Assembly (NCBI GenBank): GCA_021772755.1
Contig: JAJFLJ010000270.1
Location: 1-32,842 of the forward strand
DNA: 32,842 bases
Direction: 5' to 3'
Source of the DNA: Candidatus Sumerlaeota bacterium
GTDB lineage: Bacteria > Sumerlaeota > Sumerlaeia > SLMS01 > JAHLLQ01
Every line of letters starts with the position of its first letter. Within the stretch, counting starts at the first letter, position 1. The translations under genes and the position numbers were made by a program. Positions 7,643-16,217 of this stretch are shown here, one piece after another. Under the pieces are notes generated by a model. It saw only the letters and a program-made list of their open reading frames with translations, was not told where the DNA came from and ran no database searches.

Positions 7643-7708
7643 ACAGGCCGCTCGAATCGTAATGCGAAACGCACGACTTCCGACGCACTTCGCGAAAGGT
7701 GATCAGGC

Positions 7709-12100
<4,392 letters not shown>

Positions 12101-12445: not shown

Positions 12446-13546
12446 ATGAAGATCGTCCGCGTCATCAACAGCCTGCACAACGGCGGCGTTCAGCTCCGCC
12501 TCGAACGCGTCGCGCGCGACCTGGCCGCGCGCGGGCACGACGTTTCCATCGTCTGCACGGCGGAGGAAGGCCCCAACGCGCCGCGCGTCCGTGACTCCGG
12601 GGTTCGCGTCGAGGTCGTGCCGGTCGCGAAATGGAAGAGCCCCCGGGCGTGGTGGCGGCTCGCGGCGCACCTGCGGCGCGAAAGACCCGACGTCGTCCAT
12701 TCGCACATGTTCCGCCAGAACGCTCCCGCGACGATCGCCGCCCGCCTGGCCGGGGTGCGAAAGGTCTACGCCCAGGTCCACCTGGTGAACACGTACAAGA
12801 ACCGCGGATGGGTTCGTACCGACCGCGTCCTCTCGCGTCTTCGCACGGCCATGCTCGCCGTTTCGGAGGGCGTGGCGAAAGACATTCGCGATGCGCTGCA
12901 TCCCTTTCCCCCGCCGCGACTGCGCGTCCTGTACAACGGCGTCGATCTCTCGCCCTTTGCCGGCCTGGACCGCGCGAAGTGCCGCACCGACCTTCGCGCG
13001 GGGCTGCGTCTCCCGGACGACGCGTTCCTCGTCGTCAATCTCGCACGGCTGCATCCCGAGAAGAACCAGGGACAGTTGCTGGACGTGTTCGCGCGAGTCG
13101 TCGCGGACAGTCCGCGTGCGCACCTGCTCCTTGCCGGCGAGGGCGAAGCCCGCGCCGACCTGGAGTCGCACACCCGGCGGCTGGGCATCTCCGACAATGT
13201 CGTGTTCGCGGGCCAGCGCGGCGACGTTCCGGCGCTGCTGGCCGGCTGCGACGCGTTCGTGCTGCCGAGCATCCAGGAGGGATTCTCCAACGCCATCCTG
13301 GAGGCGATGGCGGCGGGTCTGCCGGTCATCGCCTCCGATACCGGCGGGGCCCGAGAGGTCGTGCGCGATGGCGAGAACGGCTGGGTCGTCGCCGTCCGGC
13401 ACCCGGCACCGCTGGAGGAGAAGCTCCGCGCTCTCGTTCACGATCCCGGACAGGCGCGCGCCATGGGCCAGGCCGGCCTTCGCATCGTGCGGGACTTCTC
13501 GCACGATGCGATGATCGAAAACACGCTGCGCCTGTATTCGGATTAG
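12446..13546 (+). CDS. Glycosyltransferase family 4 (GT-B fold)
   Basis: NGGVQLRLERVARDLAARGHDVSIVC; DVVHSHMFRQN; VLYNGVDLSPF; FVLPSIQEGFSNAILEAMAAGLPVIASDTGGAREVV. ATG starts one nt after the DUF503 stop. Confidence 0.92.
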   Translation: MKIVRVINSLHNGGVQLRLERVARDLAARGHDVSIVCTAEEGPNAPRVRDSGVRVEVVPVAKWKSPRAWWRLAAHLRRERPDVVHSHMFRQNAPATIAARLAGVRKVYAQVHLVNTYKNRGWVRTDRVLSRLRTAMLAVSEGVAKDIRDALHPFPPPRLRVLYNGVDLSPFAGLDRAKCRTDLRAGLRLPDDAFLVVNLARLHPEKNQGQLLDVFARVVADSPRAHLLLAGEGEARADLESHTRRLGISDNVVFAGQRGDVPALLAGCDAFVLPSIQEGFSNAILEAMAAGLPVIASDTGGAREVVRDGENGWVVAVRHPAPLEEKLRALVHDPGQARAMGQAGLRIVRDFSHDAMIENTLRLYSD

Positions 13547-13553
13547 GACCTTC

Positions 13554-15236
13554 TCAGTCCGCGTCCCACCACTTCGCCGGGCCCGGATCGCGCAGCGTGT
13601 TCGTCGCGCAATGCACGTTGCCGCACCACTCGTGGTACAGACGGTCGTCCAGGAACACTTTTTTCTGGGGAAGTGTGGAGAGCAGTTCCAGGACATGCGC
13701 TTCGAGCAGGTCCGCGCCTTCCACCACCGGCCCGTTGGGCGTCGGCAGAAACAGCGTGTCGTTCACGACCAGGCTGTTCACCATGTTCGGAACCATCGAA
13801 CGGCCGTCCCGCTTGTAGTACGCCGGAACGTGCACGAGCGCATCCTCTCCGACTCCGAGTTCCGCGACGATGACCGCGTTGTTCGCGTCGATGCGGTCGC
13901 GCTGCAGCTCCTCGTTGTAGGCCCGCAACTCCCCGTCGGCGAGAAGCGAGGCCGTCGTCATGCCCTTCTCGTAGATGGAGAGGAGGGGAACGTCGCCCTG
14001 GCCCGCTTCGACCCACCCTTCCGCGAGTTCGATCATCGCGGTCACGCTCGGAACCAGCACTCTGTACGGATCGTCCGCGATTCCCGTCGGCACGAAGCAC
14101 ACCATTTCGTCGACGTGCTTGATGAGCAGCCAGCCGACGTCCATCGCCAGCGGCGGTGCCTGCACCCCCTGGGCGCGGATCATCGCGACGATTCGCGGGT
14201 CCAGCTGCGCCTCTCCATCGTCGCCGGCGGTGCCGTAGTACATCCGACCGAGAGGCCAGGCGGACGTCGGCGGCGCGATTTCGAGATTCCCGAACCAGTC
14301 GATCCACGACGTGCCGCCATCGCCCTCGCCGAAGGCGGGACGGTAGTCGCCGACGCGGTACCAGCCGAAGTCCGCCCCGAGAAGACTCGCCTTCGAAAAG
14401 TCGTCGATCGACTTGCCGCGGTTGGCCTGCAGAACGACCGGCATTCTCGCGCCCGGCATTTCCGTGTATCCGATTTCCATCGTGTCCTGCAGCCAGACCT
14501 CGTGGCTGCCGTAGGGCGCGCCGCCCGGAATCGCGAACAGCTCCGCGCCGGCGCGGGGAACGTACTCGCGCAGCGAAGCCATGAATGCGTCGTTCCTGCC
14601 GGGGAACTCCCGGGCGTACACCACCCTGCCGGCCTTGTCGTTCGCCAGCATGATCCACGGCGCGACTTTCATCTGCACGCGGTCCGACGCCTCGACGATA
14701 TCCGCGCGCTCCAGCGCCAGCGTCAGCGTCACCATGCCGTCCCATTCGGCGTCGGCGAACTGCTTCGCCTCGATGGCGAAGCCGGAGTTCGGAGCGATCG
14801 CGGCAGTGCCGTTCTCGAACGTCACGGGAGGTCCGAAGGGAACCCTGGCGCCGCTTTCCTCGCGGGTCGCGAAGATGCGAACGCGGTCGGCGGATGCGGC
14901 ATCGACCGAGAGAAGAATCCGCGATTCGTCGGCAAGCCCCTCCGGCGCGCGCGTCGAAACGAACGCGAAGTCGCCGCAGTCCGCATTCCCGTCGACGAGA
15001 TCGTTCGCGTTGTCGGGTTCGCCGTCGCCATCGTCGTCGTCGCAGTTGTTGAGGAGGATGGCTCCGCGCGCGTTCGACCAGGCGGCGCGACCGTCGAGAT
15101 CGCTCTCGAACGCCACGACGCCGTCGCGATTCGTGTCGGCGACGATCGCGAGGGCCGTGCGTTCCGCAGCCGCCCGCGGCGCAACAAGTCCCAGCGCGAC
15201 AAGCGCTCCCGCCGTGATCTTCGTACCATTCCTCAT
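13554..15236 (-). CDS. Protein-arginine deiminase, vertebrate PAD-type (PAD_M + PAD_C), with predicted signal peptide
   Basis: WLQDTMEIGY, WFGNLEIAPP, HVDEMVCFVP, FPNMVN-like VPNMVNSLVVNDTLFLPTPNGPV, YHEWCGNVHCATNTLRDPGPAKWW match human PAD C-terminal motifs; ADTNRDGVV...GAILLNNCDDDDGD and KVAPWIM match the PAD middle domain; N-terminus MRNGTKITAGALVALGLVAPRAAA resembles a Sec signal. Confidence 0.93.
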   Translation of the reverse strand: MRNGTKITAGALVALGLVAPRAAAERTALAIVADTNRDGVVAFESDLDGRAAWSNARGAILLNNCDDDDGDGEPDNANDLVDGNADCGDFAFVSTRAPEGLADESRILLSVDAASADRVRIFATREESGARVPFGPPVTFENGTAAIAPNSGFAIEAKQFADAEWDGMVTLTLALERADIVEASDRVQMKVAPWIMLANDKAGRVVYAREFPGRNDAFMASLREYVPRAGAELFAIPGGAPYGSHEVWLQDTMEIGYTEMPGARMPVVLQANRGKSIDDFSKASLLGADFGWYRVGDYRPAFGEGDGGTSWIDWFGNLEIAPPTSAWPLGRMYYGTAGDDGEAQLDPRIVAMIRAQGVQAPPLAMDVGWLLIKHVDEMVCFVPTGIADDPYRVLVPSVTAMIELAEGWVEAGQGDVPLLSIYEKGMTTASLLADGELRAYNEELQRDRIDANNAVIVAELGVGEDALVHVPAYYKRDGRSMVPNMVNSLVVNDTLFLPTPNGPVVEGADLLEAHVLELLSTLPQKKVFLDDRLYHEWCGNVHCATNTLRDPGPAKWWDAD

Positions 15237-15260
15237 CGTCGCATTCTCCGGAGAGTGGGG

Positions 15261-16217
15261 CTATCGGCTGCCGCGGGGATCGAACGCGTCCCGCAGTCCG
15301 TCGCCGAACAGATTGAACGCCAGCATCGTCACGCTGATGGCGATGGACGGAAAGATCAGCAGGTGCGGCGAGGAGTTCATGCTCTGGACCGCATCCGAGG
15401 CCAGAGAGCCCCAGGAGGCGAGGGGCGGCGAGATGCCCAGCCCGATGAAGGCCAGAAACGCCTCGACGAAGATCGCCTCCGGAATCGCCAGCGTCGCCGC
15501 CACCAGCAATGGCGCCATGCAGTTGGGCAGCACGTGGCGGATCAGAATGCGGGCCTGGGACGTCCCGAGCGACTCGCACGCCGCCACGTAGTCCTTCTTC
15601 GACTGGTTGATGACCTCGCTGCGGGCCAGCCGCGCCATCGTCAGCCAGTTCGAAAGCCCCAGCGCGAGATACACGCTGATCAGGTCCGGCGTGAGGAGAA
15701 TCGGCAGTTCCACGTCCGGCGGAACCCTCGCATCGATCAGCGGTTTGACGAAGACCTGGAGCAGGATCACGATCAGCAGCAGAGGAATGCTGTAGAGCGC
15801 GTCCACGATCCGCATGAGAACGGTGTCCACCTTGCCGCCGACCCAGCCGGCGATGGTTCCGATTCCCACGCCGATCATCAGATTGATGGCCATGGAAACG
15901 AAACCGACGGCCAGACTGATGCGGGCGCCCAGCATGAGGCGGGAAAGGAGGTCCCGGCCCAGGAAGTCGGTCCCCGCCGGATGAGCCAGAGAGGGAAGCT
16001 CCGGCATCCCCATCAGCGCCTCGTCGGAAGCGGTCGGGTCGATGCCCTGGATCATCGGGCCGAATATCGCCGTTCCCAGGATGAGGAGGATCACCAACAG
16101 CGAAACGACGGAAACGCCGCTGCGGCTGAAGCGGGCCAGCGCCGGGTAGCGCTTTCGCCATGTTTCCGGGGGCAGCGGGGCAGTGACAGTTTCTGCCGAC
16201 AGGGCGGTTGAGCTCAC
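15261..16217 (-). CDS. ABC transporter permease, DppC/OppC family (peptide/nickel type), GTG start
   Basis: HPAGTDFLGRDLLSRLMLGARISLAVG N-terminal motif; EAIFVEAFLAFIGLGISPPLASWGSL EAA-type loop; FNLFGDGLRDAFDPR C-terminus. Confidence 0.93.
   Translation of the reverse strand: MSSTALSAETVTAPLPPETWRKRYPALARFSRSGVSVVSLLVILLILGTAIFGPMIQGIDPTASDEALMGMPELPSLAHPAGTDFLGRDLLSRLMLGARISLAVGFVSMAINLMIGVGIGTIAGWVGGKVDTVLMRIVDALYSIPLLLIVILLQVFVKPLIDARVPPDVELPILLTPDLISVYLALGLSNWLTMARLARSEVINQSKKDYVAACESLGTSQARILIRHVLPNCMAPLLVAATLAIPEAIFVEAFLAFIGLGISPPLASWGSLASDAVQSMNSSPHLLIFPSIAISVTMLAFNLFGDGLRDAFDPRGSR

Follow-up and report, generated by a model that had tools for sequence, protein, structure and literature searches.

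The window analyzed here, a 32,842-nucleotide stretch of Candidatus Sumerlaeota DNA, carries on its minus strand (13554..15236) a gene whose 560-aa product is, judging from its sequence, most likely a calcium-dependent, extracytoplasmic, two-domain peptidyl-arginine deiminase (PAD) with a Sec signal peptide for export. The open reading frame runs from ATG to TGA, taking the longest start in frame, and Pfam recognizes two domains and no further one in its translation: the catalytic domain (PF03068, PAD or PAD_C; 1.4e-72, residues 182-557, 245 bits against a cut-off of 25) and the middle domain (PF08527, PAD_M; 4.5e-16, residues 30-174, 59.3 bits against a cut-off of 24.8). A genome search places the catalytic domain at 13563..14690 (-) with an E-value of 4.6e-73, and the middle domain, which contains an EF-hand-like DTNRDGVV in the Ca6 region, occupies 14715..15146 (-), or approximately residues 31-174. 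A phmmer search of the PDB gives full-length alignments, covering residues 28-557, to human PAD1 (2.3e-66) and PAD4 (1.6e-65), with 32.4% identity to PAD4 overall; no NCBIfam model matches the protein. A preliminary description of this DNA had placed the protein among the PADs rather than with the agmatine-deiminase-like PPAD, quoting motifs (ADTNRDGVV, GAILLNNCD, APWIM, WLQDTMEIGY, HVDEMVCFVP and GNVHCATN) that are all present in the ORF. That placement stands, as both PAD models match and PF04371 does not. Porphyromonas PPAD (PF04371) shares the wider guanidino-modifying fold and is also exported, but it belongs to a different family.

We take the ORF to be a real gene because its ortholog in the same genus, at 67% identity, keeps both the frame and the neighbors, with a dN of 0.26 against a dS of about 2.2, the latter near saturation; in this comparison the gene is under purifying selection. 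Among named relatives, the closest is a Candidatus Sumerlaeia MAG from the window's genus, 68% identical in the best segment. Other long ORFs, at 7703-11671 (-), 13543-16161 (-) and 13611-16211 (+), were rejected as genes: they are shadow ORFs of high-GC coding DNA that run opposite to or out of frame with rpoC, the PAD gene and oppC.

An AlphaFold2 model built on 3 sequences only reached a pLDDT of 36, too poor for superposition on PAD4. Functional residues were compared by aligning bacterial PADs to human PAD1, PAD2 and PAD4, whose sequences come from PDB alignments; the PAD4 calcium ligands are those given in PMC3559651 and PMC5445078. All 18 of the PAD4 positions tested (D350, H471, D473, C645, W347, R372, the Ca1 ligands, D388 and six Ca3 ligands, three of which are common to Ca4) are identical in the window protein, giving a hypergeometric P of 8e-10 against a 32% background; with the E-value of 2.3e-66 to a solved PAD, this rules out chance as the source of the match. 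W248, Q250, D251 and E254 (14475..14495, -) correspond to PAD4 W347, Q349, D350 and E353 of the active site and Ca1, H374-x-D376 (14109..14117, -) to H471 and D473, and C543 (13608..13610, -) to the nucleophile C645, so that the catalytic set D251, H374, D376 and C543 is intact, as had been claimed. D289 (14370..14372, -) aligns with the calcium-switch residue, D388 in PAD4 and D389 in PAD2, and site mapping identifies N64, D66, D68, D75, D86 and D89 of PAD_M as Ca3/Ca4 ligands. Both Sumerlaeota relatives likewise keep the four catalytic residues together with W347, R372 and a complete set of Ca1 ligands. F407, L410, S370 and the substrate-contact residues of PAD4 follow the assignments in PAD4 structure papers.

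The N-terminus points to export. The roughly 29 residues ahead of PAD_M resemble a Sec signal peptide ending in AAA-E, and a hydrophobic-stretch scan marks a putative signal peptide at about residues 1-24 (MRNGTKITAGALVALGLVAPRAAA|ER; 15165..15236, -), with a stretch of 2.35 at residues 7-18 by this crude detector. These few residues also bear on the cupredoxin-like PAD_N domain, for which Pfam finds no match. Since Pfam overlooks PAD_N in a three-domain cyanobacterial PAD (L051) as well, the short space ahead of PAD_M is the stronger argument for its absence here. On both the missing PAD_N and the likely export signal, our analysis agrees with the preliminary description. The scan measures hydrophobicity crudely, as a 12-residue stretch anywhere in the first 75 residues; among controls from the window, 0/7 cytosolic proteins and 5/5 pilus and permease proteins pass. 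Outside the clade that unites animal and three-domain PADs, an export-like or lipid-anchored N-terminus, with several lipoboxes, is seen in 32/34 bacterial PADs with readable starts, a set in which the sequences are related and some starts are guessed, while 0/4 three-domain cyanobacterial PADs pass. This suggests that across the wider family bacterial PADs mostly work outside cells.

The gene lies 24 bp downstream of oppC (15261..16217, -), which encodes an OppC-like peptide ABC permease (PF00528, 3.6e-29; synteny) and with which it is probably co-transcribed in the window. The pair recurs in a second species, the spacing being 24-26 bp over both. At locus L002 the order is pilM, OppC, PAD, YscW-like lipoprotein, protein kinase, GT4 and rpoC; in the window, by contrast, neither a lipoprotein nor a kinase gene separates PAD from GT4. 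Such a neighborhood could indicate a small-molecule or short-peptide deiminase that acts on arginine peptides in the periplasm, which are imported via Opp for nitrogen scavenging, and the five SBP_bac_5 matches in the window's genome and the many peptidases described in Sumerlaeota (PMC8092238) would fit such a role. We consider this reading unlikely, if still worth entertaining. Three PAD-less members of the family (G017-G019) have an OppC ortholog (66-69% identity) with no PAD after it, the vertically conserved oppC adjoining pilM in G017 and G018, and the PAD of genome G023 lies in a different place and beside no opp gene, so the pairing may be incidental and is weak evidence on PAD function. 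On account of the PAD-less relatives we rejected OppC-PAD as a functional operon, and the pattern implies that either the genus acquired PAD at this location or the gene disappeared elsewhere. Free agmatine, moreover, is already handled by a separate enzyme, the genome's only PF04371 match, which is on a contig (C245) other than that of the window; a role for the window PAD as an agmatine-deiminase replacement was rejected on this ground. In G023, the PAD gene diverges from one for an AguB-like carbon-nitrogen hydrolase (L069:2649-3668, -), a relative of N-carbamoylputrescine amidase that scores below the cut-off (313 bits vs 410).

The calcium sites are not all retained, a point that the preliminary description did not raise. 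The Ca2 site is gone, with T252, Q270, A271 and G274 in place of PAD4 E351, D369, S370 and N373; PAD4 R374 is replaced by K, R639 is likewise unconserved, and the Ca5 ligands D168 and E170 have become N and L. The loss of the Ca2 ligands and R374 is what would be expected of a pseudo-enzyme that preserves the PAD fold to bind at the envelope in a calcium-dependent manner and carries out no deimination, and such proteins appear to exist among cyanobacterial relatives. In all of the two-domain cyanobacterial sequences L056-L064 (family f276), the Cys is replaced by Ser or Asp while the fold is kept, and in most of them the His has also become Asn or Gln, or the Asp has become Glu, Asn or Gly, making these apparent PAD pseudo-enzymes by sequence. 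Retention of the fold in this branch is thus no proof of activity by itself. We nonetheless regard a binding-only function as improbable for the window protein, because it and both Sumerlaeota relatives keep the four catalytic residues, W347, R372 and every Ca1 ligand. Loss of Ca2 need not equal inactivity either, as a triple mutant of the PAD4 Ca2 site keeps about 10% of kcat while its cooperativity is gone (PMC5445078). The window protein is therefore probably an active PAD.

As an active, exported deiminase, the protein would be directed by its Sec signal peptide to the periplasm or farther out, into calcium-rich surroundings. There, calcium bound at Ca1 and at the Ca3/Ca4 cluster of PAD_M would bring order to the active-site cleft. 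With the guanidinium group held by D251 and D376, attack by C543 and hydrolysis assisted by H374 would yield citrulline in peptides or proteins and ammonia. Given the loss of the Ca2 ligands and PAD_N, calcium activation is predicted to be less cooperative than in human PADs. Its most likely substrates, in our view, are proteins and peptides of the envelope or the cell exterior that are rich in arginine.

The preliminary description had called the protein a PAD of the vertebrate type, which is correct for the family, given the Pfam matches and the alignment to PAD1 and PAD4, but wrong at the level of the clade. In an unrooted tree of 45 sequences under a mixture model, the window protein clusters with its genus mate, a further Sumerlaeota PAD (L005) and two planctomycete PADs (L003 and L015) at 96/92, with two-domain cyanobacterial PADs as the sister of this Sumerlaeota/planctomycete group (100/96). 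A separate clade (100/100) unites the human PADs with the three-domain cyanobacterial ones and has as its nearest outgroups three planctomycete proteins of great length (L013, L017 and L018; 99/96). Forcing the Sumerlaeota PADs together with the animal and three-domain PADs costs 122 log units and is rejected (AU p 3.5e-23), while monophyly of the Sumerlaeota PADs is not rejected (p 0.058). The window protein also lacks the Ca2 site that nearly all members of the animal/three-domain clade retain. The full Ca2 set is nearly exclusive to that clade, the exceptions being planctomycetes L018 and L032; L041 keeps the Ca2 set with a Ser at the calcium-switch position. The planctomycete sequence L003, from Botrimarina colliarenosi (L003:5977-7098), is a PAD of 373 aa that has neither PAD_M nor a signal peptide, keeps the catalytic residues and is placed inside the Sumerlaeota clade.

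Two features described as hallmarks of the animal/three-domain clade are nevertheless found outside it. Cummings et al. described the calcium-switch Asp as retained solely by that clade and the PAD_M-PAD_C linker as differing between it and the fungal and actinobacterial PADs (PMC8826395). The switch Asp, which lies within LLGADFGW in the window protein, is present there and in both its relatives, as are APWIM linkers. Among planctomycete and two-domain cyanobacterial PADs, several carry one of these features or the two together, in identical or similar form, which makes the switch Asp and linker more widespread than described. The window protein thus resembles the two-domain bacterial and fungal PADs in having PAD_M and PAD_C without PAD_N and in keeping the catalytic, Ca1 and Ca3 sites with Ca2 lost, but differs from the actinobacterial and fungal PADs, which lack the switch Asp and the APWIM linker (PMC8826395). 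With the two-domain cyanobacterial PADs L040 and L055 it shares export by our scan and a similar DW(F/Y)GNLE active-site block, and it differs from the many members of that group (L056-L064) without catalytic residues in being intact. With human PAD1-4 and the three-domain cyanobacterial PADs, for one of which PAD activity is established (PMC8826395), it shares the middle and catalytic domains and the catalytic, Ca1, Ca3 and Ca4 residues checked, while lacking their PAD_N and Ca2 and having a putative signal peptide.

PAD genes are patchily distributed, occurring in 3/40 Sumerlaeota genomes, 25/392 Planctomycetota genomes and 20/319 genomes of a group that we call Cyanobacteria on the strength of its three-domain PADs alone. 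No PAD was found in phages, and no relative in viral contigs by single-protein scan or by profile, giving no sign of a phage origin. An established bacterial precedent comes from Streptomyces, where a PAD encoded away from the peptide cluster deiminates citrulassin in vivo (PMC9266682), and a comparable role in tailoring RiPPs, with the PAD gene remote from its peptide cluster, could be imagined here. This seems a shade less probable still than a binding-only protein, as no precursor or lasso cluster is found among the window's annotated genes, and the Streptomyces PADs form a distant branch, the plasmid-borne ones having about 27% identity to the window protein. Although the assembly is a draft in 312 contigs, it is extremely improbable that the gene is a contaminant foreign to the organism: rpoB, rpoC, pilMNOPQ and rpoN lie on the same contig, and a second, independent MAG of the genus has PAD in this position.

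The roles of PADs in bacteria have been reviewed as completely unknown, and PAD activation in vitro needs calcium at at least 10x the cellular level (PMC9174705). An intact, apparently secreted two-domain PAD provides a concrete enzyme with which to ask whether bacterial PADs act outside the cell at extracellular calcium. Although the kind of enzyme is known, the phylum is new in this regard within the open-access literature, where we found no report of a PAD from either Sumerlaeota or Planctomycetota; among bacteria, the table by Cummings et al. names cyanobacteria, actinobacteria and proteobacteria only (PMC8826395), and a paper on Sumerlaeota physiology does not mention a deiminase (PMC8092238). 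The wider export pattern (32/34) may matter more than the single Sumerlaeota PAD. We tentatively suggest, as a conjecture that we would sooner doubt than accept, that the exported two-domain PAD is the ancestral form, with bacterial PADs ancestrally extracytoplasmic and export lost once, near the gain of PAD_N, on the way to the three-domain cyanobacterial and animal PADs. If so, the window protein would stand for this ancestral form, and the requirement of human PADs for calcium far in excess of the cytosolic level would be a relic of an extracellular enzyme.

Two further genes illustrate the range of forms that PADs take. One of the three-domain cyanobacterial PAD genes (L042, genome G623) contains an in-frame TGA and may be decaying or misassembled. 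In genome G355, searched as Planctomycetota, a PAD domain forms the C-terminus of a 2449-aa protein with FG-GAP repeats and a TIG domain (L071:211-7560, +); this PAD has the full Ca2 set and belongs, with L013 and L017, to the closest outgroups of the clade of animal and three-domain PADs.
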